From: a virus
IMG/VR virus record: IMGVR_UViG_3300020470_000868
Location: 48,458 to 112,457 of that record
Direction: 5' to 3' (one strand)
Length of the DNA: 64,000 nucleotides
The number at the start of each line of letters is the position of its first letter. The first letter of the stretch is position 1. A program made the translations under genes and the position numbers. Shown one piece after another: positions 2,359 through 55,810 of this stretch. Under the pieces are notes generated by a model, which saw only the letters and a list, made by a program, of their open reading frames with translations, searched no databases and was not told where the DNA came from.

Positions 2359-2397
2359 ATACCGATCTTTCTGATGGGGAAACAAAACGTGAACTGT

Positions 2398-4963: not shown

Positions 4964-4965
4964 AG

Positions 4966-5430: not shown

Positions 5431-5530
5431 CGTTCATCTCCATATATGCAGTCCTTAGTATATAGACGATATACCAAGTAACTATTACAACAAGTATTGC
5501 AATCATAATAACAACACCCCAGACAACCAT
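5357..5530 (-). CDS. Small single-pass membrane protein (57 aa)
   Basis: A short frame that begins at ATG 5530, joined to the oxygenase stop as TAATG, and ends at TGA 5357. The first 25 residues are almost entirely hydrophobic (VVWGVVIMIAILVVIVTWYI), giving one predicted transmembrane helix. A polar, acidic tail (KQEELLQLPSDGDKQSS) follows. The 3' part overlaps the nuclease gene in another frame. TAATG coupling, used by several neighbours, and the helix support a real gene. No family was recognised. A small inner-membrane peptide is a plausible role. Confidence is limited by size and the overlap. Confidence 0.6.
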   Translation of the reverse strand: MVVWGVVIMIAILVVIVTWYIVYILRTAYMEMNDGSNGSTKQEELLQLPSDGDKQSS

Positions 5531-18257: not shown

Positions 18258-18475
18258 TGTTGTTTCTCCAGGAATGATTTTAGTAGAGATTTGATCTCGG
18301 TCAATTCAGATTTTAGCACAGAAACGTCAGTTTGTAAGTCGGAAACTTCCTTCTCTTTTTTCTTACGTTTTTTTGCTGCACTACCGCTAGTTGCATTAAT
18401 ATTTAGCACAGCACCAGAAGAGGTATCTCGAACTAAATTAGGGTGTCCTCTAACCTCTTGGTATCTTGGTTTCAT
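18254..18475 (-). CDS. Small protein with basic linker and coiled coil (73 aa)
   Basis: The N-terminal 27 residues (KPRYQEVRGHPNLVRDTSSG, then AVLNIN) form a compact conserved-looking motif. I recall it from short proteins of other T4-like phages without a named function. It continues into a lysine-rich linker (KKRKKKEKE) and a C-terminal helix with leucine heptads (LKSELTEIKSLLKSFLEK). The start is joined to the stop of the 2397-aa gene as TAATG, and the end overlaps the next gene as ATGA. This places it in one translational chain with its neighbours. Confidence 0.8.
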   Translation of the reverse strand: MKPRYQEVRGHPNLVRDTSSGAVLNINATSGSAAKKRKKKEKEVSDLQTDVSVLKSELTEIKSLLKSFLEKQQ

Positions 18476-27207: not shown

Positions 27208-27229
27208 TGGATACTATGTACCTTCCTTT

Positions 27230-27237
27230 TATTTATA
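27230..27237 (-). promoter_or_regulatory. Perfect T4-like late promoter box for gp8
   Basis: TATAAATA on the minus strand in the 35-base gap before gp8, 23 bases from the ATG at 27207. AAGGAAGG follows, which may serve as a ribosome site. Confidence 0.75.
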
Positions 27238-27242
27238 GTAGT

Positions 27243-30817: not shown

Positions 30818-30825
30818 TATTTATG
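30818..30825 (-). promoter_or_regulatory. T4-like late promoter box for the 559-aa gene
   Basis: CATAAATA on the minus strand, 25 bases before the ATG at 30793 and overlapping the end of the upstream gene. It matches NATAAATA. Confidence 0.55.
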
Positions 30826-32196: not shown

Positions 32197-35100
32197 TTAG
32201 TCGTCGTCAAAGATTTGGGTAGGTGTGAAGGAACTGAGTGTTGTTGCACCGATGTTGACGGTAAGAACAGCAGCAGTTGATAGAACAGGGATTGCACCGT
32301 TAGATGTGATACCAACACGATATTCATCATTTGTATCTGCCTGTGTAGTAGCAGCAGTTGTATATGTAGAACTAATTGCTCCAGTGATATTGTTCCAACT
32401 TGATGTTCCATAATCTTTTTTCTGCCACTGATATGAAAGAGTTCCGTTGTTAACGTTAATTGCTGAACCCATATACTGATGATTACCACATACGTAATTA
32501 AGAGTAGCAGGAGCATCAGCAGCGACTGTAATGCTAACACTACGTGTTGTAGCAGCATTAAATCCCGCAGCATATGTTGCGTAGTCTGCAACTTGATTAC
32601 CGTTAAGACGATATACAACACCAGTCTCATATCTACTATTGCCACCATAAGCAGTAGCATCTTCACTAAAGTAAAGTGCGTGAGTAGCATTGGTAACATC
32701 GTTTTGATTAAACTGATATGTTGCTCCACGAACAAATACAAGTGTTGGTGCTTCAGTGCTTGAATTAAATTGACCACCAGTAAAGTTATAACCTTTTCCA
32801 GATCCTTGACCATAGTAAGGATGGTTAACAGACTTATCAGCAACATTAATTTGATAAGCAACAACATTAGATATTGTTACTTTTGCTGCAACTTGGAATG
32901 TAGCAGTCTGACCTTGGTTAACAGTAATATTTCTAGGTGATTCAGTTATTGTTATAAAGTTCTCTATGACTCCAGTACCACCTGTTACAGGTATGAAGTT
33001 AGGATCGTAAATATCAATACCACCATTTAATGCAGGTCCTGTAGGTCCTAAGAAATCATCTGCAACAGTTGTATTTGCAACAATAGTAGGTAATGAATAT
33101 CCTTGACCTGCGTTCTTAACATCAATTCTTGCTACACCAACAAGTGCCTTAATACGTCCACCAAATCCTGTTGAAGATATAACATCAACTTGTGGTCTTG
33201 TACTATAACCATCACCAGAGTTTGTTAATATCGCATTGGTAATACGTCCTTTTTCAATTTCAGCAAGTGCAGAAGCATTACGTCCTTTAACTGCTCCACC
33301 ATACTCAAATGTAATTAGAGAGTTAGATGATTCAATAAGAGCAACTGTTCTTGTTTCTTCCTCACCATCAATGATAAGTTCATCACCTGCTTCAATAGGT
33401 GGTACAACTGTTGCTGCAATAACGTCAACATCAGAACCAACATAAGAGAATGCAACGAAGGTTGAACCTGCACGAGGAACTTCAGAGAAGATAATTCTAG
33501 AACCAACAATTTCAAAACCAATTCCAGGTTCCTGTATAACACCATTTAACTGACAAATAATATTGTTCTCAGGTAAGATTGTATTTGATTGTACACCATC
33601 AGTTAAAGTCAATGAGTAGAACACTCCATTTAACTTTAAGTTGAATGAGTTACGTAATGAATCAAAGTCGAATGATATATCATCTAATTGTCTTAACTTA
33701 CCTTTATATACACCGTGGAAAGTTGATCCTATAGCAGGTGCTTCAGTAAACTGTATGTTATCTGAGAATGCTGTGAATGCGTAGTCAGCACCAGGTGGTT
33801 GTAAGATACCATTCACAAAGATCATCATATGTCCTGCGGGATCTGGGAAGTATTGTGTACCATTTCCTTGAGTTAGTTTAAATGCCTTTTGTACACCATC
33901 AAATCCTCTAAAGAATCTACGTACTCTACCTCTTAAAGATCTAGCAGATGAACAAGCACCTTTGAAACCATTGTCTCCAATAATTTGTGAGTTCTTCTGG
34001 AATGTTCCACTTGTTCCTTCTAAGTGGAGAACAGCACGAGTACCAAACTGTGTAATCTTAGCAATCTTACCGTATGCTGTTGTATCTGTTATTGTAACTG
34101 CTGCAACTCCTGTATATACGGATGGGAATAGAGTTCCAACTGGTACTTTAGCAAGTTGATATTGTGAATTACTTGCAATATCAGAAATAGTTACACCTTC
34201 TGGAGTTCCAGTTTCATTTGCAACAAATACGTAATTATTATTTGTATCAATCTCAGTAACAGTCACTGTCCAACCAATACTAATACCACCAGATTGAACC
34301 TGTAATACATCACCAACATTAAATGTATCAGTAACACCTGTATCAGTAATTAACTGAACATATGTAAGTCTTGTAATTTGTCTACCGTGTACATACTCAC
34401 CAAAATTAGGTAGAGTAACAAAAGATTCAATTTCAATAATTTGATCAGTAACAGATCCATAGATAACATCTTGGGGTTTAAACTCTCCAGTTACTGTGGT
34501 GATGTCGTAAGTGATTCTACCACTCTGATTATCAATTAGTGCACCGTTATTGTTTCTAACAATTAGAGCAGTTGCTTTAGATCCAGTATCTGTAGAGAAG
34601 AACTTATCAGTTGCAATAAATTCACCCTGACGGAAATTAACAAGAAGTCTATCGTGCTCATCAGCAAATGTACAAGTACCACCAGATGTAACACCTTCTA
34701 TAGTATCACCTGCTGTAAATGTTCCATTGTAATCAATCAACTTAATATATGTCTCGTTATCAGTAGCAAGAACCTTACCAGTATTTTGAGTAGCACCTTG
34801 AACAACAACTGTCTCACCATTCTGAATCTTGATTCCAGTTCCACCACCTTGTGCAGAGAATGTATTACAGGTCATATATTTTGCCTGATACATAATATCT
34901 GCTAAATTATCTTCCATACGAACTATCTGAGCAGTAGCACCAGATGTTCCACCGTAGATAACATCAGCAAGGTTGAAACCTGCTTTGATTGGTGTTGGTA
35001 CATCACGTGTTCCATAAGTTGTAGGTACACGATCTACACCTGGATCTACTTCAACAGCGAGTGTATGTAACTGTGATGCTAGACCTGGACTTAGATATAT

Positions 35101-38100
35101 TGGTTCTCCATCAATATATTCTGTAAGAACTATCTTATTAGATGTTGAATTAGGATGTACATAATAGGTTGTTCCATCAAGTTCTGGAATATTAGATCCT
35201 AGAACAATATAAGCAACTCTATCATATGGTTCAAAGTTATTAGCAACATTAATAACTCCATCATAAACAGCAACACCTGCGTCAAATTGTGTTCTTAAGT
35301 ATGTTGTTGGGAATTGTGAGTATTGTAACGCAGTTAATATTAAGTGGAATAATTGATGTAACTTATGAGATGCAGTCGCAGTAGGACGTAATTCTCTATC
35401 AGGATTAGTTCCATCAAGTGAATAAAGAGGTTGGTTAGCATTTACACCAGGATCAGGTGCAGTTCCTTTTAAGATATGATCCATCAACTCTTTAATCATT
35501 CTTGCGTGATAAAGAAGACGAGTTCTAAAGAGTGTTGGGTATGCTACGAAATTACCATCAGCATCAAACCAAGAGTTAACTAATTGTAAAGTCCTAGCAT
35601 TACCATTTGTAATGAAGTCATATACAATCGCTTTTTGTATTGGTTCAGCAAACGAAGCATCTCCTGCATAACCAGGATATTGATTTAAAGTTTTCTCATA
35701 TGATTCTAATCGAGTATATGTGTCATTGTATATTAATAATCTTGCAGATTGTTTATACATCTCTGTGCCACTTCCAAGACCGTGAAGAAGTGTCTTGAAT
35801 AGTACGTGTGCAGCAGATGTGACATCGTAACAAGTTCCACCTTTATATACAGTGTTGTTAGTGACAGGTGCAGTTCTGGTTATAGTTGCAAGATGACTAC
35901 CATTTCCTTGAGCAGCAGTATCAATAGTATTAATAAGTATCTCCCAAAGGGTATTAATCGCTGAACTCTGTGTGGTGCAGTTTCCGTTACCTGCTGAATC
36001 GTAAGTTATAGAAACGTCACGTCTAATAGCACGTTCACCTGTAAGTGGCCATTCGAGTGGTAATGTTCTCGTAATTCCATTTAGATATGCTGTAGGATTA
36101 CTTGTATTACTACTATCAAATAGATTGATAGGAATACCCATTAATGTTGTTATAGACGCTGCTTCATTTACACAACGAACTCCACCACCACCAATAATAA
36201 AGGTTATAGCATTAGTATTAGCACTTACAAAGTTGTGAGGATGATTACCACCATAAGATACAGCACCAGAAACAGCACTTACAAATGTATGTGGATATTG
36301 TTCGTTTGTAGGTGCAGGGTTTACATTAACCTTAATACGTCCATTCTTAAATCTAACACCTCCAGGTGCAGCAGATATGAATGTATGAGTGTAATTTCCA
36401 CCTGCACTTATTGCATTTGTTGCAGCATTTACAAATGTATGAGTAGTTACGTTAGTAGATGGGATTCTTCCAGATGCTAAAACATTAACTGTAATAGTTG
36501 TTTGACCAACTGCTTTTACTTCTAAAGGAACATCATATGCTCTATCTTTCTTCCAAGTAATATTATTTGTAGCAGAAGAAACATATGTGTGTGGTGTTGT
36601 ATTTGTTGAAGGTATTCCAGTAGATAATAAAACTTGAACTTTAAATGTATTTGCAGTTACATCTGAAATTTCTAACCAAGAATTAGCAGCAGGGTCAGTA
36701 GCACGTGGATATGTATGATTTGTTTGATTGTTATCTTGACCACAAGTAAATGTTAGAGAATCAGTTGCAATCTTAATTTGATCACCATTTGCAAATCCGT
36801 GTTGAGGAACAGTCAACTGCATCATACCTGTAGTAGGTTCATATACAGCAGCAGTGCTCTGATGTATTGTAGTTGTTGTTCTAGGATATGAATGCTCAGT
36901 AGCATTATTATCTTCTAAACAAGTAAATATTAATGAATTATCAGCAATCTTAATGTGTGATCCAGGAACAAGACTGTGATTACCGATTGTGATAACCATA
37001 TCTCCTGTAGTAGGACTGTAAACAACATTTGATGGAGTATAATTTAGAGTATTTGTAGAACCAACGTTTACATCAAAAGTATTTGTAGCAACGTTGCTGA
37101 TTGTTAGATACTGGTTTGATGCAGGATCACTAGCACGAGGATAAGAATGTACACTATAGTTGTTATCCATTGTACAAGTGAAGTTCAATGAATTATTAAC
37201 AAGTCTTATCTGATCACCATTACTAAATCCGTGTTGAGGAACAGTCAGGGTCATAGCACCAGTAGTAGGTGAATATGTTGCTCCTGTTGCTGTAAACGCA
37301 GAATCACTAATTTCTAAAACTTCTAATGATTTACCACTAGCATAGTCAGTAGGACGAGGATATGCGTGGTTAGTAGTATTACCATCTTTTGTGCAAGTAA
37401 ATGTTATTGCATAATCTTGAGAGAACTTAATATGTCTTCCAACATTAAGATTATTTGTACCAATATCTAAGAATAGATTACCAGTTGCTTCTTCATATAT
37501 TGCATCAGTAACATCGTGAGTTCCGTTAGCAGTAGTTCCTACATTTACTGTAAATGTATTTGTAGTAAATGCTGTAACTGGTAATAAAGCACCGCTAGAA
37601 GGATCTAATGGTCTTGGATATGTATGGTTTGTTGCATTACCATCAAAATCACAAGTAAATGTTAATGAGTTTTGAGCAAGTTGAATACTATCACTTGTAG
37701 TTAAGTTATGACCATTAACAGTAAGTCTTAAATTACCTGTAGTTGGGAAGTATTCTACATTTGTTGGAGTTAAGTTACCAACTGTTGTATTAGTACCATC
37801 AATAGTAATACTAGAATCATATATTGCACTTCCTTCTGTTACACCATTAATTGTAACAATCTGCTGTCTCATTATTTGTATTGCAATATCTCTTGCTTGT
37901 TCAAAGATATATTTAACTTCTGCTGCTTGGTTACTAATATGCTGTATAGCATTTCCAACTGTAATATAGAACTCACTTGAATACCACATACGGTTGTTAC
38001 CACCGTGCTTTAAGTTGAATACTAATGCTTCAAGTAAATCTACAACGTCATCAACACAAGACTGATAATTATAACCACCAGAGAATGCCAAATTAGGATA

Positions 38101-41100
38101 CTGAGACATACCACGACCAACAGCAGTTGTAGCGATAAATCTTATATTATTTTCAATTTCATTTGCAGCATCATAGTAACCATTGGTTGTAGCATTATTA
38201 TAGTAATCAGGTCTCTGTATTGCTTGTCCTAATCCACCTGTTGCTGCCTCACTCTCATAGGGAGTAAACCCTAAACGGTTTCTGATGGTTAGGATTGACA
38301 TATCTCTTGCTAACTTAAACGCATAGATTGTCTCATCAGATTGATTAGTTACGTGACTTAATGCTAAATCAGTATTTAAGTATAAAGCAGCAGCATCATA
38401 TGTCTCGCTGTTACCACCAAAACGTAAATCGTGTGCTACAGATTCGATGATGTCAACAATATCATCTTCACAGTTAACTTTACCACCTGGAACTCTAAAC
38501 TTCTTAGATTGTGCAAACGATGTTTTAGTTAGAATATCAACTGCTTCACCTGCAATGGTCTTAGCATTTTGCTGTAAAAGATTTGCAGCGTCAAGATCTC
38601 TATCAGATCCAGTATATGCTTTAGGATCTATTGTAATAGTATCGTCACGATAAACAGACTCATCTGTGTATAACATCTGATAGTAATCAGAGAAATCAGC
38701 AGCGACTTGAGCAGGGTTCTCATTTCTACCAATTAATAAACCTTGTATTGCTTTTTGTGCTAACTTCTTAGCATATTCAATCGCATCAATCATTGCAAGC
38801 AATTCATCTTCAATATAATTGATATTAGTCTCATTATCGAGATAACTATCAATCATTGCTTGAGTTTCAAAGTTACCACCTGTAACCAAGTCACCTGCAA
38901 TAGCAGGAAGTATATGATCTCTAATATCTCTTACACATTTTGCTCTATTAGGTATTGTTAGTTTATTTACTGTTGAGAAACCAACTTGTACTTGATATTT
39001 GTTTTCAATATAATATACTGCTTCATCAGCGATTGCTTTTCTATTAAAGTAAATTAAATCAGCACCATCTCTAAATCTATGACCTGTAGGACCTATAACA
39101 TCTAATAGATCATCTACAAGAGTCATAATATCAGTTTGTATCTGTGAAGATGCAGGAGATGCAAAATAATTAGGAACACGAACTTTAGTTGAATAAGTTC
39201 CTTCTAAATCTGCTTCATCTAATGTAATTACATCAATACAAAGTTTTGCAACTTCTCTCCAAGTATAGATTGATTGTAATTGCTCACCACCAATATGTTG
39301 TAATGCACCAGATCCTTCAATGTAAGCACGACCAACAATGGTTGTTTGGAAGTTACCACCTGATATAAGATCGTCAATTATAGCAGGAATAATATATGAT
39401 TTAGTATCACGTAGACAAACATTAGATCCATAACCACTCATACCACCATCACCAGGGATGACAAAATCAGGGTATCTATACTTAAGACGACCAACTGCTT
39501 CTTCAGCAATATAGTCAATATTCTTACGTATAACTTCAGCACATATTCTATATTCTTCACGACTAAGATCAACACCTTCAGTTGTAAGTTCAGAACGCCA
39601 TAGCTCAACTTCATCAGCAGTAGCAGTAGATATTATATGATTAACGTATGTTGCATATACTGCACTCTGTTCCATAGGGAATGGTGCTTCACCAAGAAGT
39701 GCGAATGATACATCTGTACTATCGTTAAAGATAATAGGGGGAGTAAAACTACTATTGTACTGGGAAATTCCTTTGCGGATTATAAGATTATCAATCCAAC
39801 CATTGAAAGGATTACCATTGTTCCATCCTGCACCAACAGTAATCTTACTATTTGCATTATAATTGTTTGTATCAGTGTATGTACCCATCTGCTGACCATT
39901 TACAAACAGTTTAGTAACACTTGTAGAACGAGATACTGCAATATGATACCAGTTATTGATTGTAGTAATAGCAGAACTAACAGTAATTACATCACTAGCA
40001 CCTATAGATAAGCGAAGTGACTGACCAGACATCAATATACCTAACTTAGTGTCAGAAGATGACTCTCTAAGATCAATAAGTCTCTGTGTGCCAGTAACAG
40101 AAGCAGGACGTATCCATAATTCCATTGTATAGTCACCAGTAGCAGCATCTGCTCCATCACCAAATAATACAGCATTACTTGATGGGAAAGTAGCATATGA
40201 ACCAGATCCAGTAAATCTAAGTGAACCAGAATCAGTTTTAAATGTTAATTTATCTTGAGATACGTTTGCATATGTAAGTTTAGAGTTGGTTATGTACTCA
40301 CCTGCTTGTAATACACCACTAATCTGTTTAGAGAAGATCCACTTGTTACCTGCATTAGATCCAATAACATCATATGTTGCACCTGATGTAACTGCTCTTA
40401 CAGTATCACCAAATACAAAGAATCCACCAGATGATTTATCTCTATAAGCGTGTTTAGCACAACGTAAAGTTTCTCCATCCACAAAAGCATAAGGAGGAAG
40501 AACACGAGGTACATTAGTAATTGCCCACTGATATGTTGCAGGAGTGCCACCTGTAGGATCCTCTAGAGTATCAGTAATGATTCTCATATAGGATGTTATA
40601 GCATTTGCCTGATTAACACAACTGTTAGTATATCCTGCATACGCTCCAGAAGGTGCAGTCTCAGTTACTGCTGCTTCAAATGCTGCTACTGTTCCTGGAG
40701 ATGCAGTTGATCCAAGATTAGTAATCAAAATATTCATTAGTGTAGTAATTGCTGATGCAACTGCCTGACAAGTTGGGTTTGCAGGATCAGCGGTTATAGA
40801 TGTATCAGTTACTTGATTCCAGTTATGAGATCCTGCTTTTGTCCAAGCATTATTTCTCATTACTTCAATAGCAATATCTCTTGCCTTAGTAAAAGCATCT
40901 ACAATAGTATCTCTATCACCAGATGTTACACCATACTGTAGAGTTTTCTTAGTTGCTTTATATACAAAGTTATTACCACCGTGTGCTAAGTTATAAACCA
41001 TCGCTTCAAGAACATCAACAATATCAGATAAACAATGAACATCTCCACCTGATACGTTATATCCTGGATTTTGTGTTTTAGCATAATGTAATGCTTCATA

Positions 41101-47100: not shown

Positions 47101-50100
47101 ACTCGTTCCCGCAGGATCATTAACACCAACAAATATACAGGTGTTATCACTTGTAAATTTAAGGTCTGTTAATTGTTCTGATCCTGATGCAGTACATATC
47201 TTACGTTTTTCTTTAATAGCACCCTGTTCATCTAACAAAGCAATCCACATATCATCTGGATTTGGAGAGTTAGTATCTGTTGTACCACCAACGTATATTT
47301 GACCGTTATCATCTATAGTTAAGGATGATATATAATCTCTTCTTGAAGAACCAGATATACCTGCAATTTCACGTTGCCATACAGGAACAGCAGTAGGATT
47401 GTTCTGTGCATCAAATCCAGAGGTATATTTGGCAACAACTAGGTCTGGATTGTATGATAAGTTGACATTATTAGGAATTGTTTCACCAACAACGTAGATA
47501 GAATGTGGTGATGTGTTTTCAAGATAAATTCTGTTAAATACACAACGTTTATCTCCCGCAGCAGGTTGTAGTGGTGCCATTGTACGTGTCCACAACAATC
47601 TACCATCACTATTGAATTTTGCAAGTAATCCTGCTGAATCTCCATCAACATCATCTGCTTCACCGACAACATAGAATGTTCTATCATCAGCAGTAACAAT
47701 ATCTTTAAGTTTTACTATTTTCTCAATACCACTACTCTCATCTAATAATGTAAGAGCATAATTTGCTTTTTTATATCTTTGTGGATGACTTACTCTAACT
47801 TCTGGTGGATTGCTAGGTGTATATTCTGATCCAGAGTTAATAATATTAACTGTATTAACAGCACCAGATTCAAGTTGTACAAGTTCTAATTTAAAATCTT
47901 GACCAGTTCCTGTAACAATTTCGTAAGTTGGTGGAATATCATCATTATATCCAAGACCTTGTTGACTAATATTTACTGTTTCAACACCAGATACAACTTT
48001 TACTCTAAATGTTTTGTTTGTTTGATCAATAATAGGAATACTATCAACAATAATTTCATCATTAACTCTTAAATCGTGTTCACCAGTAGTTGTAATCTTT
48101 GCTAACGGTGAATCATTAACCATAGATGAAGTGTACTGACTGACATCAATACCTTTTACAGCATTTACTTTAGCAGATGCACCATATCCACCAGTTCCTG
48201 TATCGTCAAAGAACAACTTATCATTAACTTTATATGATATACCTGGGTTTTCAACTACAAATCCACTAATTTTAGCATCTTCAAATTTAGTAGTAGTATC
48301 AATCTCAATATCAACCTGTGATCTAGTAGATACACTAGGGTAGTAATCAAATAATTGCAGTACAGGTTCTTCTGAGATATAATTTAATTCGTTTTCTTCT
48401 TCTGTTGATATAACACCATCTCTATTAGTATCTTCTATTTCAAAGATAAACTCGTCACCTATCTCAGTTACAAGAGTATCTGTATCTTGGTTAGGTGTAC
48501 GTTGAATATCAATGTCAACATCTTCATAAGGATCACGGAATCTAACAACATCAAGAGGAATATTGGTTTGTACAGCATCTTGACTATAGTTCCATTCGTC
48601 AGGTCTTGAATATAATTGTGGTCCACAGACATATGGGAATACAGGTAAACCTGCTTCTGATGCGTCAATGGAAACAAAATAAGCATAAGTTCCTTCAGGA
48701 TATTCAGGTGTCTTACAATATCTACCATTATACTGATCTAAATCACCTGCTTGGAACACATACTCATAATCTTCTATATAAGTTCCTGCGGGTTTGTCTG
48801 ATAATAGTGGTCCATCAGCACGAACTGGATTTGGATTGGTTGCACTGTCAAATAATAACGCAGGTTTTACTCTGTAAGAAGATACACATCTCTTAATACC
48901 AGATGACTGATCAGCAGCATCAATATAACCATATGGTCCGTATATTGGGTTTCCATCAAATGCCCAACCAATAATAGGAGAGTGTCTTAGTCCTGCTGAA
49001 AGTTCTCTAAGATTTCCTGATGATGGATCTTTAAATACATTATCACCAAGAACATAACGTAATTGTTTAGGATCTGATAAATGTGCATATTCACCACCAT
49101 ATTGTGTGTTATATCCTGCAAATACATAACCACGAGAAGGATCCATTAGTCCTGATAGTTCAGTTTCTAAGTTCTGTGTCCACTCAAATACATTTGCAGT
49201 AAATGATGCACCTTGACCAATAGATTCACAACGAATAGTTGTAAGACCAGTTGAATATCCTATACCTCTGTTCTCAACAGTAATACTTAAAACACGTCCT
49301 TTATCTTCACCAAATGTTCCTATGGTTGCTTTTGCAATAGCACCATAACCATCACCATTAATAATTACATTAGGAGGAGATGTATATCCACTACCTGAGT
49401 TAATAATAGCGATTGATACAATACGACCATTGATAATAATTGGTTGTGCAACAGCACCTTCACCAGAATTTAATTTAATATTAGGTGCAGTTGTATAACT
49501 TGATCCTGCTGTATCTACACTAATAGATTGAATAGGACCTCTTACCTCGGCAGTAGCAGTTGCACCTGTTCCATTGCCTCCTGAGATGCTTACAGTAGGT
49601 GCTGAGGTGTACCCTTGACCAGGTGTTTCAACAAGAACTTTACTTACAACTCCATTTGTAATAACAGCAGTTGCAGTAGCACCAAATCCACCTCCACCAA
49701 CAATAGAAACTAATGGAGATGAGGTGTATCCAGAACCACCTGCTGTTACATCAACATTAAATAAAGAACCATTTACAACAACACTAGCAGCAGCACCAGA
49801 TCCACCACCACCACTTATTTCAATTAATGGTTTAGAAGCAGCGTCATATCCTTCACCTGCATCTACAATATCAAAACTTGTAATTCCACCAAATTTTGTC
49901 TTAATTTGAGACTTATAAGACCAAACAGCAACACCATTTACCCAACATCCAATAGGACCAAATGATAAATCATCACGACGTGATACAGTATCAACAATTC
50001 TAGGAAATCTACTTAACTTTCTTTGGTTTCCTGGGAGTAGAGCAGACCCAATGAACGGACCAACTTTATAGTTTGGAATACCTGTTGTAGCAATATAAGA

Positions 50101-53100
50101 GTAATTTGAGTTGAAGAACGTATTTTGTACATTAGTTGTAAATTGTGCGATAGAGTTATTGATTGATTCTTCATCTGATTTACCTTTATTAAGGTCAACA
50201 GACATCAAAATGTTACCTTGAGGTGAATTAGGTGCAGGAGCAGATATTTGATATGAGAATACAGTAGCACTAATACGAGAAGTTACAGAAAACGTACCGT
50301 TAAATATCGTTGGGTTTGCACCATAGATTGTTACAGAGTCACCAACAAGAAGACCGTGATTATTTGTAGTGTAAACAGTTGCAGTCTGGTTATTAAGACC
50401 ACCTGGTTCAATATTGTTTACAGAGATTAATTTTTTAACATTATATAACCAAGATGTAACTCTCTGATCTGTAGATGAAGAACCAAGAGATGCTACGTTT
50501 AATTTGTCACTAGGAAGATAATATGAACCAGTATCAGTAAGAACTGTTCCTGTTGCTTCAGCAATACCAAGAACACGTAATTTTACTTCAGTATCTAGTC
50601 CTCTATTGATATAACAGAAAATATCAGAGTAAATTGGAGTACCAGAATCCCAATCTTCTACAATACCATTTTTAGAACGTGTACACTCAATAAACTGGTT
50701 TAATGATTTTTCTTTATATTGTATTCTTTCACTATCACCCATAATGATGATACCGTTTCTTTCTGGCCACCCAATAGTAGAGTCAACAGTTATAATAGAC
50801 TCAGTTGTCGTTAGTGGTTCTACAAGAGTGGTTTTATAAGGTATTGAGAACTTACCTTCTAAAGTTTCCTCAGATATTGATAATTCATAGATTGTTCTAT
50901 CACCAGTGTTGATTGCAATAACGTTTTCAACTAAACATACAGCATTTCCAACAGTTGTATCTACAGCATCTGCATATTGGAATAATTGAGAGTCTAAAAT
51001 ATCAACTGGATTACCACTTATCAATTCAACACGAATAATAGTGTCAACAGACCAAGTTGCAGCAGATGGTTTGATTAATTCATCTTTTGGATATGAAACA
51101 TCAACATTTTCAGAGAATAATATTTTAAATAAGTATTCTGTAGCAGTTTTTGTACCTTTAGAGACATAAAAGTCTTTAATTGTCTTAACAATCTGTGGAG
51201 CGTTGATTGTAGTGTAATCAATATCAGCATCAGGTAAGAATTGATTTACAAAACGTTCATATAGTGTTTTTGCAAATAAAGAATCTAAATTTTCTATAGA
51301 AGTTCCAACTTCGTGTGAAGATTGAATACTTTGTGCTTCATTAGTAAATACTTGGTTTCCTCTAATATCATATGAAGAAACACCAGAAACTCCTCTTTTA
51401 CAATTCTTAAATTGTGATGGTTGATATTCAGAACCGTGTGAATGAACTGTAAAACCAGTTATTTCTTGAAATCCAACATCACAAGACGCTGCTGCTGCTT
51501 TTGGACTTGCGATAAAGACTTGTGGAGGTTCAGTATCAGAATATCCATCACCAAAACTTGTTATATTAATATCAGTAATTTCACCATTGAATATTGTTGC
51601 AACAGCAGTTGCTCCAGTTCCACCTATTGCTTCACCAGATAAATTCTTTCTATTATCAACAATATAAACAGATGGTGCATCATTGTAACCAGATCCACCA
51701 GTTAAAAGTTGAATATCAGTTAATTTACCACCAGATACCTTAACATCAAGTATTTGAGCACCTATAGGATCAATAATACGACATCTAGGAGGAGTTACAT
51801 ATCCTCTACCAGGAGAAATCATTTCAATCCTGTCTACTCTGCTCTGATCATCTAAAACTGCTATGGCAGATGCTCTAATACCAATAGGATCAACAGGAGC
51901 ATCAATATAGACTTCTGGAGCAGTTGTATAATGTAATCCTTTAGTTAATACTTGGATAGATCCATCAACTACCTTTCCTTCCGAGTCAATTTGAGCATCA
52001 CTAATAGTTGCACCTGCTGCATTTGTAAAACTAATGGATGGAATAGTGTCATATCCAGATCCAGATGATTGTACGTTAATTCCTGTGACTTGACCAGTAG
52101 CATCATCAACAGTTACAGTTGCTTTTGCTATAGAACCAGAAGGATCTGCGGGTGTATCAAATACAACTACAGGAGGGTTAGCAGAAGTATAACCTTGACC
52201 ACCATCAATTAATTGTACATTCTTAATACCATTTACAAGTGCTTCAGCAGTCGCTTCTTTACCAGTTACACCTTCTGGAGTAAGAATAGTTACTTTTGGT
52301 GTGAAATTAATTCTATAATCTTGACCACCATTTTTTACAATTAAATCTGTAACTTTATTATCACTAACTCTAGCAATAGCAGAAGCACCTTTACCAAATT
52401 GAGGTGCAATTAGTTCAACAGACCTTACAGTAATCTTATCATTTAAAGATACTGCTTTTTTTAGTATTAAATGATCATTATAAACTGTGTAGTCAGTAAA
52501 TGGTTCTTGAACCACTCCATTTACAGCAATCAAACAAGATACTGTAGATAAAGGTGTATATACAACAGTGTTTAACCTTAATGGAAGTATTTTTGCACCT
52601 ACAAGGTCGTCAGTTATATTAATTACATCTAAAACTCTAACAGGAACACTTGTATAACCTATAAGATATTCAATCTTAGTTACTGTAGTTGATCCTGCAA
52701 GGTTTGCAGGAGGAGTTTGGAATCTAATGTTTGATCCATCAAGAAAATAATCAACATTAGGTTCTAACTGCAAACCATTTATTATAACACGTAAATACTC
52801 AACAGAACTTGGTGTAATTGGAGTTCCAAGTAGTTTTAATTGGAAACTTGTTTCAGTTCCATCAAATAGAGGTCTTATATTTTCTAACTCTTGTATTTTC
52901 TTATCAAATTCTAACTTATTGACACCTGGAGTAAATACAACCTCTGGTGATTTAGTTGTTTCTTCATAAAAAATAATTTCATTATCAATCTTTATTGTTC
53001 CATCTTTCTCAAGAAAATTATCAACAGTTTCTACAGTAATATTTTGATCAGTAGCACCTATGCGATCTAAAACAATAGATGATGAAGAAATAAAGTTAGG

Positions 53101-53283
53101 ATCATATTCGTCACTTGAAATATCTGTATAACTTAAAATATTGTTTAAAATATCATACGGTTTACCACTTTTCTCCTGTGACTTGTAGTATTGTACTAGC
53201 AAGTCTACAAAAGACTGATCCTCTTCTTTTATAAACGCAGGGATCTGGTCCTGTAACCGTTGGGATACCTTAACTGACTTCAT
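32197..53283 (-). CDS. 7028-aa giant virion protein, gp7-like baseplate wedge protein with massive insertions
   Basis: One uninterrupted frame of 21 kb at the T4 gene 7 position, directly after gp6. Residues 1-60 (helical, DQSFVDLLVQYYKSQEKSG), 660-830 (IKDFYVSKGTKTATEYLFKI, then LF) and about 3485-3510 (NEWRKSILETNHPVGF) resemble the C-terminal part of T4 gp7 as recalled. Other parts in order: Gly-rich GxGY repeats (300-645, 1128-1368); YHYH domain (1378-1565); EF-hand loop DTNRDGVISTEE (near 1620); beta-propeller-like region (1855-2220); LamG-like domain (2238-2442); more GxGY repeats (near 3030-3260); six helical repeats (3920-5140) with a second LamG inside; five FTC/YPR repeats and five HTFV repeats (5165-5695); and an Ig domain holding a cupredoxin-like insert at the C-terminus. 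AAGAG precedes the ATG, and a late promoter box lies at 53359-53366. No frameshift was seen. The wedge assignment is inference; a virion role is nearly certain. Confidence 0.9.
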   Translation of the reverse strand: MKSVKVSQRLQDQIPAFIKEEDQSFVDLLVQYYKSQEKSGKPYDILNNILSYTDISSDEYDPNFISSSSIVLDRIGATDQNITVETVDNFLEKDGTIKIDNEIIFYEETTKSPEVVFTPGVNKLEFDKKIQELENIRPLFDGTETSFQLKLLGTPITPSSVEYLRVIINGLQLEPNVDYFLDGSNIRFQTPPANLAGSTTVTKIEYLIGYTSVPVRVLDVINITDDLVGAKILPLRLNTVVYTPLSTVSCLIAVNGVVQEPFTDYTVYNDHLILKKAVSLNDKITVRSVELIAPQFGKGASAIARVSDNKVTDLIVKNGGQDYRINFTPKVTILTPEGVTGKEATAEALVNGIKNVQLIDGGQGYTSANPPVVVFDTPADPSGSIAKATVTVDDATGQVTGINVQSSGSGYDTIPSISFTNAAGATISDAQIDSEGKVVDGSIQVLTKGLHYTTAPEVYIDAPVDPIGIRASAIAVLDDQSRVDRIEMISPGRGYVTPPRCRIIDPIGAQILDVKVSGGKLTDIQLLTGGSGYNDAPSVYIVDNRKNLSGEAIGGTGATAVATIFNGEITDINITSFGDGYSDTEPPQVFIASPKAAAASCDVGFQEITGFTVHSHGSEYQPSQFKNCKRGVSGVSSYDIRGNQVFTNEAQSIQSSHEVGTSIENLDSLFAKTLYERFVNQFLPDADIDYTTINAPQIVKTIKDFYVSKGTKTATEYLFKILFSENVDVSYPKDELIKPSAATWSVDTIIRVELISGNPVDILDSQLFQYADAVDTTVGNAVCLVENVIAINTGDRTIYELSISEETLEGKFSIPYKTTLVEPLTTTESIITVDSTIGWPERNGIIIMGDSERIQYKEKSLNQFIECTRSKNGIVEDWDSGTPIYSDIFCYINRGLDTEVKLRVLGIAEATGTVLTDTGSYYLPSDKLNVASLGSSSTDQRVTSWLYNVKKLISVNNIEPGGLNNQTATVYTTNNHGLLVGDSVTIYGANPTIFNGTFSVTSRISATVFSYQISAPAPNSPQGNILMSVDLNKGKSDEESINNSIAQFTTNVQNTFFNSNYSYIATTGIPNYKVGPFIGSALLPGNQRKLSRFPRIVDTVSRRDDLSFGPIGCWVNGVAVWSYKSQIKTKFGGITSFDIVDAGEGYDAASKPLIEISGGGGSGAAASVVVNGSLFNVDVTAGGSGYTSSPLVSIVGGGGFGATATAVITNGVVSKVLVETPGQGYTSAPTVSISGGNGTGATATAEVRGPIQSISVDTAGSSYTTAPNIKLNSGEGAVAQPIIINGRIVSIAIINSGSGYTSPPNVIINGDGYGAIAKATIGTFGEDKGRVLSITVENRGIGYSTGLTTIRCESIGQGASFTANVFEWTQNLETELSGLMDPSRGYVFAGYNTQYGGEYAHLSDPKQLRYVLGDNVFKDPSSGNLRELSAGLRHSPIIGWAFDGNPIYGPYGYIDAADQSSGIKRCVSSYRVKPALLFDSATNPNPVRADGPLLSDKPAGTYIEDYEYVFQAGDLDQYNGRYCKTPEYPEGTYAYFVSIDASEAGLPVFPYVCGPQLYSRPDEWNYSQDAVQTNIPLDVVRFRDPYEDVDIDIQRTPNQDTDTLVTEIGDEFIFEIEDTNRDGVISTEEENELNYISEEPVLQLFDYYPSVSTRSQVDIEIDTTTKFEDAKISGFVVENPGISYKVNDKLFFDDTGTGGYGASAKVNAVKGIDVSQYTSSMVNDSPLAKITTTGEHDLRVNDEIIVDSIPIIDQTNKTFRVKVVSGVETVNISQQGLGYNDDIPPTYEIVTGTGQDFKLELVQLESGAVNTVNIINSGSEYTPSNPPEVRVSHPQRYKKANYALTLLDESSGIEKIVKLKDIVTADDRTFYVVGEADDVDGDSAGLLAKFNSDGRLLWTRTMAPLQPAAGDKRCVFNRIYLENTSPHSIYVVGETIPNNVNLSYNPDLVVAKYTSGFDAQNNPTAVPVWQREIAGISGSSRRDYISSLTIDDNGQIYVGGTTDTNSPNPDDMWIALLDEQGAIKEKRKICTASGSEQLTDLKFTSDNTCIFVGVNDPAGTSEIIIGETNYDNVTINVSWSRQFGNTGYRFSNPKITIDDYGSRYVTATAYQISNTKNTGVLYMKFAPSDYKTPSVVKLLSPTGVFEDIQSTGVKFDIFGNIDVGAYVKYAFNDHRAIIFKISWNTSNILTAASVKQVSGIGFQPTTISNDNSGDTIIAGNKIESNELAILNFESTITGDETYNNTLTAGWSVDPTLDTSKWKYGAQSANISAAANRLSLDWGADVATNYTIEAWIAIGQAQYNAQSSTPNIFDVAPTTGDNAVVELEGDATSPDFGKVRLKLGSNTYLSTTTTNWTTFNNEAFIHVALVKSTPGVGTYVYKVFINGVEQIDVTSTTIDTQLKSILLFGKSSPVVASSIGGWVDNISVSGIAKYSDTFTPAQAVGSNKTVSAFCYKLDREQTKTGTYTLNTVQTGMQIQVAAAVNDFTFNTQVITSGDWTLGPAGLQILDYADVVSNNVEGTYSFTSTDQIYETRTATIPTPLGRKLLLSTTVIPKFYIRDAIYQSIDTVKTVTFNQTANFTKGSILQQYSVIGGQDVVSAYGTIVNVRGAQGQVDIGNIIGNFDTTKKLKSTANDVNLINQTFLVETTIPQWFTNFSYTTGDEVYNAGKIYTAGSTGVSGASAPIHTIGTVTDGNINWVYTRDAGSFNIDLANTSYSSGTLNQFGSWRPFVATDYSIRIEAVYEGSAFIKGDNIDADAVGLSATFDATGKIITISGLVGVKKFHLTSNLDKDIIPTGALAFTDLVFCVSTSRHNFTQNEIIFVEGFTTTEYGGSFFVEEVLDSRRFLYRLRSTAVQDPSFTSSTIASVNIYAKHPQLLFVRKHQYIFDLDDPSNFGYYMSFSKDNQYKLEYPFVNIVREGIPGLTDQTSPKPLVKFIVDEDVTNISYYFDPSRTLPSNSPVGEASFIDVIETPYKGTFNINQILSDTEFTFPLLVEPEKTTAPLGTTETGLTRASYSTTSLKAIGPIASIKLVNPGGFYQKLPIVTDISSDREIEKIRIISGGTEYINGIYYNVPIAGDGEGGLCNITVADDGELTGVITAVELTSPGKGYTTASIDIDTIPGILGSLLQGSGGQLDVVIPAEGSGASVFLQGTSIGKIKKLKNNEFGFGYSHDYTLRPEITFPVNLQLFNTAILSEIKVTDPGSGYTSIPRVVIEGGGGSGAEAEAIVKNNRLSEIIIKNPGSGYSSEPSVTLKSEFNYVVNLDLGYLQFNFPHGITTGAAVQLRAEDLGSTVGVLPKPSSAGLVSLSSTTTYYAIAGEANSLEADQLRIALTQVDAESGNFITFLTQGDGRQILLTEVFGGQATAIVQTSRFLKGELVYQGSSLETATATGYVSDNEGWQIGPRILKLENYNGNWTVGERVTAQVSRASGLIDNLSIARGTLNIDSMTTTTGQFIDDIGKPSEIVQKIQDSYFYQNFSYVIKSQTPINEWRKSILETNHPVGFNMFGELALAAGKDISGRKVVSDLVKEVNIFSATNINQITSFANSQPIYTEFNNTEVLFRQRRLTNSEEILTSIVKKLDNIDNDFNGVKTQFPLTVEGESVTATDDQLLILINGVAQSPGTAFTTSGPSVVFSEPPKAPSRIKFRNLTFSQINIIRYTFSTTSGIFPQTGKPVRSLQNEGTATVIDSGVDYIDVIDVEGTFQIGDNVLASSSGFDGTLSAVTGLTSKTIYEQGERITNLQGDFAIIEENNLRDGVVDARLVVSRTSGTSEFETGDFNIKFNDTIYSAASKIAARVTVIAPYTDDVSQQIIDTVDLSPPSSFFGLIFQRVPSITYPNTILDNISETVINPEELYEEGTANNQDFLDFEEVRNQEIRYNYLSGSQFVAGDSIRNKQIYYDNASLVGVDDQRSFDAAVLIRKNARFIAEEAVGLMKAFFPSFVVPSLGGDRDCEDDIVDILNIVAYQLEVDGNSEIWDAASTYVQGNAIYHVDGEVAQTIYAFNKARDLAIQCIRNEVINTTTTNLPQYRDPTITEEFAVISNSHGDARDLILANKWFIAYEALHYAKTQNPGYNVSGGDVHCLSDIVDVLEAMVYNLAHGGNNFVYKATKKTLQYGVTSGDRDTIVDAFTKARDIAIEVMRNNAWTKAGSHNWNQVTDTSITADPANPTCQAVASAITTLMNILITNLGSTASPGTVAAFEAAVTETAPSGAYAGYTNSCVNQANAITSYMRIITDTLEDPTGGTPATYQWAITNVPRVLPPYAFVDGETLRCAKHAYRDKSSGGFFVFGDTVRAVTSGATYDVIGSNAGNKWIFSKQISGVLQAGEYITNSKLTYANVSQDKLTFKTDSGSLRFTGSGSYATFPSSNAVLFGDGADAATGDYTMELWIRPASVTGTQRLIDLRESSSDTKLGILMSGQSLRLSIGASDVITVSSAITTINNWYHIAVSRSTSVTKLFVNGQQMGTYTDTNNYNANSKITVGAGWNNGNPFNGWIDNLIIRKGISQYNSSFTPPIIFNDSTDVSFALLGEAPFPMEQSAVYATYVNHIISTATADEVELWRSELTTEGVDLSREEYRICAEVIRKNIDYIAEEAVGRLKYRYPDFVIPGDGGMSGYGSNVCLRDTKSYIIPAIIDDLISGGNFQTTIVGRAYIEGSGALQHIGGEQLQSIYTWREVAKLCIDVITLDEADLEGTYSTKVRVPNYFASPASSQIQTDIMTLVDDLLDVIGPTGHRFRDGADLIYFNRKAIADEAVYYIENKYQVQVGFSTVNKLTIPNRAKCVRDIRDHILPAIAGDLVTGGNFETQAMIDSYLDNETNINYIEDELLAMIDAIEYAKKLAQKAIQGLLIGRNENPAQVAADFSDYYQMLYTDESVYRDDTITIDPKAYTGSDRDLDAANLLQQNAKTIAGEAVDILTKTSFAQSKKFRVPGGKVNCEDDIVDIIESVAHDLRFGGNSETYDAAALYLNTDLALSHVTNQSDETIYAFKLARDMSILTIRNRLGFTPYESEAATGGLGQAIQRPDYYNNATTNGYYDAANEIENNIRFIATTAVGRGMSQYPNLAFSGGYNYQSCVDDVVDLLEALVFNLKHGGNNRMWYSSEFYITVGNAIQHISNQAAEVKYIFEQARDIAIQIMRQQIVTINGVTEGSAIYDSSITIDGTNTTVGNLTPTNVEYFPTTGNLRLTVNGHNLTTSDSIQLAQNSLTFTCDFDGNATNHTYPRPLDPSSGALLPVTAFTTNTFTVNVGTTANGTHDVTDAIYEEATGNLFLDIGTNNLNVGRHIKFSQDYAITFTCTKDGNTTNHAYPRPTDYASGKSLEVLEISDSAFTATGATYSPTTGAMTLTVPQHGFSNGDQIRLVNNSLNFTCTMDNNYSVHSYPRASDPASNQYLTISNVATNTFDVNVGSTNTLNYTPSNVVYSPTTGDMVITIGNHSLVPGSHIKIADNSLIFTCLEDNNATEHSYPRTTTTIHQSTAAVYEPTTGMMQLTVPQHGFANGDQIKIATDSLTFTCGQDNNQTNHTYPRATDPAANSWLEISDVTANTFKVQVLLSTGIPSTNTTPHTYVSSATNNITWKKDRAYDVPLEVKAVGQTTITVNVLASGRIPSTNVTTHTFVNAATNAISAGGNYTHTFISAAPGGVRFKNGRIKVNVNPAPTNEQYPHTFVSAVSGAVSYGGNHPHNFVSANTNAITFIIGGGGVRCVNEAASITTLMGIPINLFDSSNTSNPTAYLNGITRTLPLEWPLTGERAIRRDVSITYDSAGNGNCTTQSSAINTLWEILINTIDTAAQGNGSHLATITRTAPVTNNTVYKGGTCYDVTSAAHVLFKTLLHGLGSGTEMYKQSARLLIYNDTYTRLESYEKTLNQYPGYAGDASFAEPIQKAIVYDFITNGNARTLQLVNSWFDADGNFVAYPTLFRTRLLYHARMIKELMDHILKGTAPDPGVNANQPLYSLDGTNPDRELRPTATASHKLHQLFHLILTALQYSQFPTTYLRTQFDAGVAVYDGVINVANNFEPYDRVAYIVLGSNIPELDGTTYYVHPNSTSNKIVLTEYIDGEPIYLSPGLASQLHTLAVEVDPGVDRVPTTYGTRDVPTPIKAGFNLADVIYGGTSGATAQIVRMEDNLADIMYQAKYMTCNTFSAQGGGTGIKIQNGETVVVQGATQNTGKVLATDNETYIKLIDYNGTFTAGDTIEGVTSGGTCTFADEHDRLLVNFRQGEFIATDKFFSTDTGSKATALIVRNNNGALIDNQSGRITYDITTVTGEFKPQDVIYGSVTDQIIEIESFVTLPNFGEYVHGRQITRLTYVQLITDTGVTDTFNVGDVLQVQSGGISIGWTVTVTEIDTNNNYVFVANETGTPEGVTISDIASNSQYQLAKVPVGTLFPSVYTGVAAVTITDTTAYGKIAKITQFGTRAVLHLEGTSGTFQKNSQIIGDNGFKGACSSARSLRGRVRRFFRGFDGVQKAFKLTQGNGTQYFPDPAGHMMIFVNGILQPPGADYAFTAFSDNIQFTEAPAIGSTFHGVYKGKLRQLDDISFDFDSLRNSFNLKLNGVFYSLTLTDGVQSNTILPENNIICQLNGVIQEPGIGFEIVGSRIIFSEVPRAGSTFVAFSYVGSDVDVIAATVVPPIEAGDELIIDGEEETRTVALIESSNSLITFEYGGAVKGRNASALAEIEKGRITNAILTNSGDGYSTRPQVDVISSTGFGGRIKALVGVARIDVKNAGQGYSLPTIVANTTVADDFLGPTGPALNGGIDIYDPNFIPVTGGTGVIENFITITESPRNITVNQGQTATFQVAAKVTISNVVAYQINVADKSVNHPYYGQGSGKGYNFTGGQFNSSTEAPTLVFVRGATYQFNQNDVTNATHALYFSEDATAYGGNSRYETGVVYRLNGNQVADYATYAAGFNAATTRSVSITVAADAPATLNYVCGNHQYMGSAINVNNGTLSYQWQKKDYGTSSWNNITGAISSTYTTAATTQADTNDEYRVGITSNGAIPVLSTAAVLTVNIGATTLSSFTPTQIFDDD
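36200..36600 (-). repeat. Five short HTFVSA-type repeats in the giant protein
   Basis: Encoded segments HTYVSSATNNI, HTFVNAATNAI, HTFISAAPGGV, HTFVSAVSGAV and HNFVSANTNAI recur at intervals of roughly 35-165 bases, each with a leading His. They probably form one beta strand per unit of a larger fold. Confidence 0.8.
36700..37790 (-). repeat. Five FTC...HxYPR repeats in the giant protein
   Basis: Five copies of FTCxxDxNxTxHxYPRxxDPAS occur at about 240-base spacing (the last interval is shorter). Each is preceded by a YxPTTGxMxLTVxxHGF-type segment. Conserved Cys, Asp, Asn and His in every unit hint at metal binding or disulfide-stabilised folds. Confidence 0.85.
37860..41530 (-). repeat. Six helical repeats of about 100-110 aa in the giant protein
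   Basis: Units at about 41530-41225, 41130-40850, 39530-39215, 39045-38735, 38585-38270 and 38165-37860. The shared pattern is IAxEAVxxxxxxYP, then a Cys followed by DDIVDIIExxxxDLxxGGN, then IYAFxxARDxAIxxIRN. A LamG-like domain (about 40260-39750) separates the second and third units. A seventh, degenerate unit may lie near 35760-35440. Confidence 0.85.
49180..49900 (-). repeat. GxGY Gly-rich repeat array (second array) in the giant protein
   Basis: About six units of roughly 38 residues with the pattern GxGYTxxPxVxIxGGxGxGAxAxAxV, such as GSGYTSSPLVSIVGGGGFGA. Related arrays lie near 52380-51340 and 44200-43500 and in the 623-aa protein. Confidence 0.88.
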
Positions 53284-55396: not shown

Positions 55397-55810
55397 TTAT
55401 ATTGTCTCCAATAGGAAGTCAACAGTTTGTATCAAGGTTTCACCAACAATAGTATAGTCAAATTCAACACGAAGATTGTTTTCATCTTCTGGGTCATTAA
55501 AAACTCTAACTTGACGAACATTAATTCTTGGTTCTAGTCTTTTAACGACGTTGATGATTTCTTCTTTTATGTCTTGTGCTAGAAAAACATCATATGGTTC
55601 AAATAATAGTTGTCTCAAACGTGATCCAATCTTAGGTTGAAATGGTCTTTCACCCATTCCAGTTAATACTAAATTACGTACTGATTGCTTAATAGCGTTT
55701 TCATTCTTAACCACAGTAAAATCTTCAGTATTCGGATTTGCTCTCATCTGAATACTGAAGTCTTTGAATTGTCTGCTAAGAGTTCGTTCTGCTCTGAACT
55801 TGTACGCCAT
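55397..55810 (-). CDS. 25: Baseplate wedge protein gp25
   Basis: Small wedge protein of the gp25 / phage W family that nucleates sheath assembly by contacting the first sheath ring. At 137 aa it is near T4 gp25 (132 aa). Characteristic parts are FSIQMRANPNTEDFTVVKNE and the EPR-type segment RNLVLTGMGERPFQPKIGSR, followed by LFEPYD, all conserved in the family. A late promoter box is located 27 bases upstream. Gene 6 follows directly, so 25-6 form one unit as in cyanophages. The short frame at 55776-55913 overlaps its start. Confidence 0.96.
   Translation of the reverse strand: MAYKFRAERTLSRQFKDFSIQMRANPNTEDFTVVKNENAIKQSVRNLVLTGMGERPFQPKIGSRLRQLLFEPYDVFLAQDIKEEIINVVKRLEPRINVRQVRVFNDPEDENNLRVEFDYTIVGETLIQTVDFLLETI

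Follow-up and report, generated by a model that had tools for sequence, protein, structure and literature searches.

A probable gp7-type baseplate wedge protein with its core in three blocks, encoded by a giant gene of a cyanophage-like T4 relative

The locus and its giant gene

The DNA analyzed here is a stretch of 64,000 nucleotides (hereafter the window) that forms the final 64 kb (record positions 48,458 to 112,457) of IMGVR_UViG_3300020470_000868, an incomplete IMG/VR virus contig of 112,457 bases. Its minus strand, on which all features described below lie, carries an open reading frame (ORF) of 7,028 codons (32197..53283) with an ATG start and no internal stop, whose 7,028-residue product has a calculated mass of 760 kDa, compared with 119 kDa for gp7 of phage T4. 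This ORF very probably encodes a gp7-type baseplate wedge protein of a cyanophage-like T4 relative, with a core in three blocks. A near-identity DNA search of a phage collection matched 89 records, all of them named Synechococcus phage, Prochlorococcus phage or Cyanophage.

The gene sits at the T4 gene 7 position, as the first-pass annotation of the window had stated: according to PHROGs and Pfam, gp25 (55397..55810; PF04965, expectation value [E] 1.9e-15) and gp6, the expected core partner (53303..55396; phrog_219, E 1.1e-193; Gp6-like_1st), adjoin it on the upstream side. On the other side lie a YHYH protein, a gp9/10-type protein, a phrog_708 baseplate protein, gp8 (25672..27207; PF09215, E 2.5e-16) and a VrlC homologue (18475..25668), which is 50.7% identical to the annotated part of S-SM1 VrlC and has no gp7-core signal.

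The same annotation had singled out two segments of the product as resembling C-terminal segments of T4 gp7, described as lying about 150 residues apart. Both are present where claimed, DFYVSKGTKTATEYLFKILF spanning residues 704-723 and HPVGF beginning at H3501, preceded by W3492, and this observation of two gp7-like segments in one giant ORF is confirmed. T4 gp7 has both motifs as stated there, DFYSTKGIEASYKFLFKVLY (position 734) and W875...H884PVGF, with 141 residues from position 734 to W875; only the gap between the Trp and HPVGF had been miscounted, being of eight residues and not nine, here as in T4. The first segment belongs to what we call core block 2, and the second to core block 3.

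Core blocks and their likeness to gp7

The core of the protein falls into three parts (residues 5-57, 638 to ~835, and 3453-3511), which are separated by insertions of 580 and ~2,617 residues and followed by a 3,517-residue tail. Core block 1 (residues 5-57; 53113..53271) is an N-terminal helix block recognized by a hidden Markov model (HMM) of eight short gp7s, and its counterpart is the helical domain of T4 gp7 at ~643-689. Insertion A (residues 58-637; 51373..53112), the 580-residue gap between blocks, is made of repeat modules that appear in self-similarity searches and look beta-rich by eye. Core block 2 (residues 638-733; 51085..51372; T4 gp7 672-761), found by HMM, profile-profile and PDB profile searches, consists of helices ending in a DFYxxKGT..LF motif, and is followed by a beta domain resembling domain V (residues 745-815; 50839..51051; T4 765-823), which was placed by superposition of an AlphaFold model on 5hx2 chain A and by profile-profile alignment. 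Insertion B (residues ~836-3452; 42928..50778) contains repeat modules, a YHYH domain, beta-propeller-like repeats and a LamG-like domain, as judged from Pfam, HMM and self-similarity searches. Core block 3 (residues 3453-3511; 42751..42927; T4 gp7 839-892), detected by the same three kinds of search as block 2, reads IQDSYFYQ-FSYVIKS...W........HPVGF, and the C-terminal extension (residues 3512-7028; 32200..42750) is the most variable part in most HMM and BLAST comparisons. HMM blocks 2 and 3 are separated by 2,719 residues, from which the retained domain V is subtracted to give the ~2,617 residues of insertion B, close to the ~2,650 estimated at first pass.

Insertion B falls near the end of T4 domain V, at ~T4 823-839, because domain V (766-861 of T4 gp7 in Pfam) aligns by fold and profile up to T4 823-830, equivalent to window residues ~815-835, and the second segment restarts at window residue 3453, opposite T4 839. 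Beyond domain V, variants of an ITVDSTIG module are found in all seven aligned cyanophage segments. As for block 1, an HMM built from the 60 N-terminal residues of each of the eight short gp7s matches residues 5-57 (E 3.8e-8; next best 6.5), which indicates that the wedge core is split in three, and positions 4-53 of PF23786 match the extreme N-terminus of the S-SM1 and P-SSM4 homologues. Block 1 is linked to T4 solely via the alignment of a T4 profile, starting at T4 residue 643, to the short relatives. The giant insertion announced by the first-pass annotation is real, but its picture of one split was incomplete, as there is a third core piece at residues 5-57 and the split is common to relatives.

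Evidence for gp7 identity came from independent HMMs seeded by eight gp7s (phiOC, BUCT-ZZ01, YB07, Mosig, Melnitz-3, HTVC008M, Cr30, and phiN3), none of which is of the T4 type or of the giant cyanophage type. The target set comprised 2,490 ORFs: 415 stop-to-stop ORFs of at least 60 residues from the 112 kb record and 18 kb of T4, together with 2,075 shuffled copies. The HMM of the first segment ranked the giant ORF first (E 2e-15) and T4 gp7 second (1.2e-5; next 0.39), and that of the second segment gave the same order, with the giant ORF at 1.8e-19 and the sequence after T4 gp7 at 0.40. In hhalign comparisons, a profile of the C-terminal part of T4-group gp7s aligned to the eight short gp7s over T4 643-830 (97.6%, E 3.5e-12), and the T4 gp7 C-terminal profile aligned to seven cyanophage segments including that of the window (E 1.7e-8 in one run and 4.5e-11 in another, the latter with a score of 79.1, whereas 60 column shuffles did not exceed 22.5). 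T4 block 3 aligned to twelve others including the window (94.9%, E 4.4e-8; score 44.6 against at most 17.5 in 60 column shuffles), and in each of the three tests controlled in this way the highest of the 60 shuffled scores was less than half the real one.

Profiles searched against 177,635 PDB sequences pointed to the same family. One built without T4 from residues 623-861 and relatives was led by the two solved gp7s, at 6.5e-5 and 8.6e-5 (T4 and Klebsiella phage KP1; next 1.1), whereas at E <= 10 the sole matches of the second-segment profile, also without T4, were KP1 gp7 (0.0065) and T4 gp7 (0.037), and those of the eight-short-gp7 profile were the two gp7 sequences (7.7e-8 and 1.9e-5). The Pfam family PF23786 (Baseplate_wedge) gave two partial matches on the ORF (21.6 and 12.4 bits), at profile positions 173-221 and then 235-280; each half alone lies below the curated cut-off of 27, and the insertion breaks the profile. 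With phmmer, residues 1-900 missed gp7 in the PDB and residues 3400-3600 listed T4 gp7 first (E 0.38); an NCBIfam search of the window protein returned weak matches only. The KGT motif presumably resembles one in P2 gpI, and PF09684 (P2 gpI / Tail_P2_I) gave no match in the record.

The predicted fold of the first segment agrees with these results. A template-free AlphaFold model of residues 623-861, computed from 89 sequences, had a mean predicted local distance difference test score (pLDDT) of 67.4. Its top three Foldseek hits among 350,542 PDB chains were 5iv5, 9f4a, and 5hx2, that is, T4 and Klebsiella phage KP1 baseplates holding gp7; 5iv5 and 9f4a had E 6.5e-4 and 7.3e-4 with a probability of 0.99, and 5hx2 had E 0.044 with a probability of 0.14. 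As the Foldseek output gave no chain names, the assignment to gp7 was made from chain length, residue numbers and the gp7 content of the PDB entries. A structure alignment with VIA placed model residues 123-193 (window 745-815) on 765-823 of 5hx2 chain A (59 residues, 2.4 A, Z 5.3). The fold evidence weighs mainly through the gp7 entries being ranked first, at roughly the residues predicted from sequence. Both segments therefore match gp7 profiles, and the first matches in fold as well; their order and the position of the gene are those expected of gp7, and the gp7 interpretation of the first-pass annotation is supported.

Several results nevertheless weigh against this assignment. The block-1 HMM misses T4 (E 13) and likewise has no significant match in S-CRM01 (E 10), T4 gp7 was not significant (E 0.31) with the block 3 HMM in the 2,490-ORF test, and the match of block 3 to the PDB gp7s is modest. 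In hhalign, T4 against 38 aligned pelagiphage-type gp7s reached no more than 54.8%, and beyond domain V the alignment wandered. The T4-specific models (phrog_964 and PF21428, PF21427, and PF21456, covering the helical domain, domain V and domain VI) match T4 gp7 and do not list the window protein, which places it outside the strict T4-type gp7 family, characterized also by ~640 N-terminal residues. On the structural side, the predicted template modelling score of the 623-861 fragment was 0.32, and Z values of 5-6 are middling (the tool's own note sets the mark at <8). The VIA alignments to 5iv5 and 9f4a (Z 6.1 and 6.0; 117 residues) had a root mean square deviation of 17.6 A, superposition being tight in domain V only, which suggests the right pieces in no common rigid placement. 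Finally, an AlphaFold model of the complete HTVC008M gp7 was poor (mean pLDDT 57.5, blocks 2 and 3 at 25-49) and Foldseek found nothing for it below E 0.087, so that it lent no support to a joint packing of the three blocks.

Relatives, rival readings and names

In all 18 proteins compared, one from each of 17 named phages and one from the window, both block 2 and block 3 are encoded by the gene that follows gp6. This preceding gene is gp6 by annotation in ten phages (P-SSM4, P-TIM40, P-SSM2, BUCT-ZZ01, ACG-2014f, S-CRM01, Syn1, S-SM1, MED4-213, and T4), by a gp6 HMM in the seven other named phages (E <= 3.9e-106; T4 at 4.9e-76), and by Pfam and PHROGs in the window. The spacing between the two blocks is 77 residues in T4, 97 in phiOC, 199, 260, 369 (Mosig), 389, 522 (HTVC008M), 548, 801, 1086, 1583, 2167, 2235, 2350, 2712 (S-SM1), 2719 (window), 2802, and 2807 (P-SSM4); the HMMs used to measure it were seeded with T4, BUCT-ZZ01 and the window for block 2, and additionally with P-TIM40 and HTVC008M for block 3, so the E-values are not independent. 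Blocks 1 and 2 are contiguous in phiOC, BUCT-ZZ01, Cr30, and phiN3, 19 residues apart in YB07 (in which block 2 is partly matched), 72-85 in Syn1, ACG-2014f, P-SSM2, and MED4-213, 84-111 in HTVC008M, Mosig, and Melnitz-3, and 572-580 in S-SM1, P-SSM4, P-TIM40, and the window. PF23786 matches 15 of the 17 complete phage records, with both halves in eight, and in each matching record all matches fall in one ORF. It has no match in the T4 and ACG-2014f records, and hence is not fully sensitive. A second gp7 was found neither in the 112 kb record, which is incomplete (HMMs and PF23786), nor in the 17 complete phage records (PF23786).

Environmental sequences give a similar picture. Among the matches listed, which correspond to 269 loci that were not deduplicated, both blocks lie in one ORF in 171, the remainder being cut by the locus end (92), having the blocks in separate ORFs (2) or being short fragments without block 2 (4). 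The queries were block 2 or a whole short gene, one of them also including the block-3 pattern, and block 2 is therefore present by construction. The listed spacings between blocks 2 and 3 are 357-377, 505-542, 2126-2286, 2487, and 2715-2796 residues. Two IMG/VR loci, L279 and L094, account for the blocks in separate ORFs, probably as a result of assembly or sequencing errors; L279 has long ORFs in two frames. In Ochrobactrum phage vB_OspM_OC, two adjoining genes are labelled T4-like gp7: p050 has the gp7 core, and p051 is gp6 by HMM (E 7.6e-147).

Pairwise comparisons show a conserved core, with loops and especially a tail whose content changes from one phage to another. The window protein and that of P-TIM40 are colinear and 50% identical over residues 1-4019, but no more than 63% of the C-terminal part aligns. 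With the proteins of P-SSM4 and S-SM1 the identity is 44% over residues 5-3727 and 5-3758, respectively, with insertion B fully covered and residues 3512-7028 covered to 52% and 37%. Against P-SSM2 and MED4-213, residues 638-835 are fully covered, insertion B to 48% and 62%, and the C-terminus to 19% and 25%. BLAST at E 1e-5 loses block 3 against ACG-2014f and block 2 against Syn1, whereas the HMMs find both. In a FastTree phylogeny based on the core blocks, the four longest proteins cluster together with a support of 0.99; branches supported at 0.39-0.45 are too weak to settle the order in which the insertions grew.

A first alternative is that gp7 is absent from these phages and the giant ORF is an unrelated structural protein. 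Passages of a 2020 pelagimyophage paper state that T4 gp7 is absent from pelagimyophages and cyanomyophages and apparently substituted by VrlC (PMC7029224), and Sullivan et al. (2010) list gp7 in the non-cyanophage core, although they anticipate that many of these functions are present in cyanophages in diverged form (PMC3037559). A search of the record with T4 gp7 as a single query indeed finds nothing, a failure we ascribe to the weakness of single-sequence searches. However, the profile, fold and gene-position evidence makes this view highly improbable, and the published substitution by VrlC is not supported: the gp7-core HMMs are silent on four VrlC sequences (window, HTVC008M, phiN3, and a partial S-SM1 sequence), bar one score of 2.1 bits (E 37), and VrlC coexists with a gp7-core gene in all four viewed records with an annotated VrlC (HTVC008M, phiN3, S-SM1, and Mosig). 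We therefore reject VrlC as a replacement for gp7. The strong modularity of the protein, in which the same module types recur in insertions A and B, in the C-terminus and in neighbouring genes, could also mean that two small phage motifs were shuffled, each on its own, into a giant adhesin that has no single gp7 core. Such shuffling, which we regard as very unlikely and reject, is contradicted by the occurrence of the blocks once each and in constant order in all 18 named proteins (best match per protein) and in all 171 listed environmental ORFs with both blocks, none of which has two copies of either at E 1e-3, and by their proximity in short relatives such as T4 and phiOC.

Because the source is a 112 kb IMG/VR virus record, the ORF might be suspected of being an assembly chimera or the product of an unusual single virus. 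This is scarcely credible, given that isolates have the same layout (P-SSM4, 7,312 residues; P-TIM40, 7,351; S-SM1, 6,180), that the P-TIM40 protein is colinear with it as described above, and that at least five other contigs encode an identical 340-residue stretch; a chimera is thus rejected. Phage structural proteins are sometimes processed, and the core may be that of gp7 in a precursor that is cleaved, the insertions and C-terminus being separate so that no giant chain is present in the virion. We judge this unlikely, and it is compatible with the giant ORF encoding a gp7-type wedge protein.

The name gp7 is already in databases: GenBank/RefSeq label the P-SSM4 and P-SSM2 genes gp7, and other records use "baseplate wedge initiator". 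The word cryptic in the first-pass annotation is thus only half right. In PHROGs, several matching families are baseplate wedge subunits, and the best match, phrog_701, is described as "virion structural protein" only. The S-SM1 homologue SSM1_102 bears the label T4-GC 969, and the section of the 2010 report that deals with virion proteins records T4-GC969 as a Synechococcus-enriched structural protein detected by mass spectrometry in purified S-SM1 virions (PMC3037559). Tabulated gp7 identities across relatives are of 4-11% in the part of the DLP6 paper available (PMC5349666). A split gp7 core was not found described in the open-licence literature searched. The present data contradict the printed absence of gp7 from pelagimyophages and cyanomyophages and take gp7 off the non-cyanophage list, as it is present in 18 of the 18 phages examined. 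They also reveal a natural series of spacings, from 77 to 2,807 residues, within one small core, point to likely host-contact modules in phages of Synechococcus, Prochlorococcus, and Pelagibacter, and caution that a core extending over 3,500 residues may be overlooked when genes are clustered by the similarity of whole proteins. A core that is split, in three parts and to a degree that varies among phages, would be unexpected even to specialists, as would the conflict with the published absence, and what became of gp7 in marine T4-like phages can now be tested directly.

Modules, possible working and known counterparts

Insertion B contains a YHYH domain at residues 1393-1540 (48664..49107; PF14240, E 4.4e-30), beta-propeller-like repeats at residues ~1871-2004 (47272..47673), where PF06739 (SBBP) scores 21.3 bits at 1976-2004 (cut-off 20.5) and DUF5122 gives a weak match below cut-off at 1871-1895, and a first LamG/concanavalin-like copy at residues ~2289-2450 (45934..46419), which is not listed by Pfam and was identified through its self-similarity to a second copy (best E 9.4e-7). 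This second copy lies in the C-terminus (residues 4369-4500; 39784..40179; PF13385, E 1.6e-21), within a repeat region that is alpha-helical by eye (residues ~3895-5160; 37804..41601; self-comparison) and is followed by tandem modules with conserved Cys/His (residues ~5164-5574; 36562..37794), delimited by self-comparison, the Cys/His being seen in the translation. When windows of the protein were compared with the protein itself using phmmer, short modules recurred across insertions A and B and the C-terminus. YHYH domains are described as predicted metal-dependent hydrolases in a passage of PMC7824862.

By analogy with characterized baseplates, the protein is likely to act as a wedge scaffold whose loops carry fused modules for host binding. 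In T4, according to the relevant passages, gp7 is present in six copies per virion (PMC3004832), and a single gp7 chain joins two gp6 chains in a three-helix bundle and a trifurcation, which TssF2-TssG of the type VI secretion system resembles (PMC6300606). The three blocks would adopt a joint fold and, packed against two gp6 chains, make up a helical core bundle and trifurcation unit, through which the signal to fire would reach gp25 and the sheath. The insertions would exit the core via loops and form the outer rim of the wedge, where the YHYH, LamG-like and propeller-like modules may act as covalently built-in receptor-binding or surface-processing parts, with the function that separate fibres or spikes attached to gp7-like proteins have in other contractile systems. 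Contact of the insertions with the host would in that case exert a direct pull on the core. A broader view, which we put forward tentatively and hold to be possible rather than probable, is that gp7 serves as a host-recognition organ in marine T4-like phages, in which whole adhesin arrays, fused at core loops and at the C-terminus (the docking sites of separate spikes or fibres in smaller phages), would make a ~760 kDa chain act as core, rim and receptor-binding apparatus at once. If this is true, and if the copy number of T4 may be carried over, six copies would total ~4.6 MDa, with core pieces held together across 2,600 residues.

Among known proteins, T4 gp7 (1,032 residues; PDB 5IV5 and 5HX2) shares with the window protein its place after gene 6 and the succession of helical block, DFYxxKGT block, domain V and HPVGF block. 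It differs in having ~640 residues before the core, with which the window protein starts, in the mere 77 residues between its blocks 2 and 3, and in its domain VI (PF21456), which is not listed for the window protein; the latter has 580 and ~2,617 inserted residues and a 3,517-residue tail. Closer are P-SSM4 gp7 (AAX46881, 7,312 residues) and the S-SM1 T4-GC969 protein, which have the three blocks with spacings of 573 + 2,807 and 572 + 2,712; their C-terminal halves differ, and their feature tables do not mention a split core. The HTVC008M (AGE60389, 1,016 residues) and Mosig (QOI69069, 874 residues) proteins also have the blocks in one gene after gp6, with only moderate insertions between blocks 2 and 3 (522 and 369), and are annotated only as structural or hypothetical proteins.

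Other contractile systems offer partial parallels. Vibrio phage XM1 gp17, a gp7 orthologue of 242 residues that did not turn up in our profile searches of PDB sequences, is a minimal wedge core in which, according to the passages seen, a loop inside the core domain and the C-terminus hold 12 tail spikes (PMC10457771); unlike the window protein, it binds separate spike proteins and has no fused modules. In AlgoCIS, wedge proteins are likewise enlarged by extra domains (the gp7-like part of Alg12 and domain IV of Alg11), and the gp7-like part is exposed at the baseplate side, contacts the tail fibres and is called a re-engineering hotspot; the extra domain (residues 278-643), however, is in the other wedge protein, and the excerpt at hand describes nothing near 2,600 residues (PMC8894135). 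The long tail fibre of the Anabaena myophage A-1(L) is held by a domain inserted into one of its wedge proteins, according to part of the published account (PMC10966104).

A few minor observations concern the modules and their surroundings. Two copies of the repeat region at 3895-5160 gave weak Phycobilisome matches (PF00502, E 5.3e-4 and 3.8e-3, below cut-off; NCBIfam CpeA, E 0.0035), which may be a chance likeness between helical sequences. The giant gene, with its own YHYH domain, adjoins that of a stand-alone YHYH protein (30821-32188). ORF residues ~6850-6930 and the C-terminus of the product of 29114-30793 have, by eye, a similar C..H....M segment (YVCGNHQYMGS and YYQCTIHSSMNGT), whose pattern is reminiscent of copper-binding cupredoxins. 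Finally, gp8 and the phrog_708 protein (25672-29114), the neck (Hc2) protein (10006-10872) and the giant protein have short modules that match the same PHROG families, a possible sign of module exchange among the proteins of one virion.

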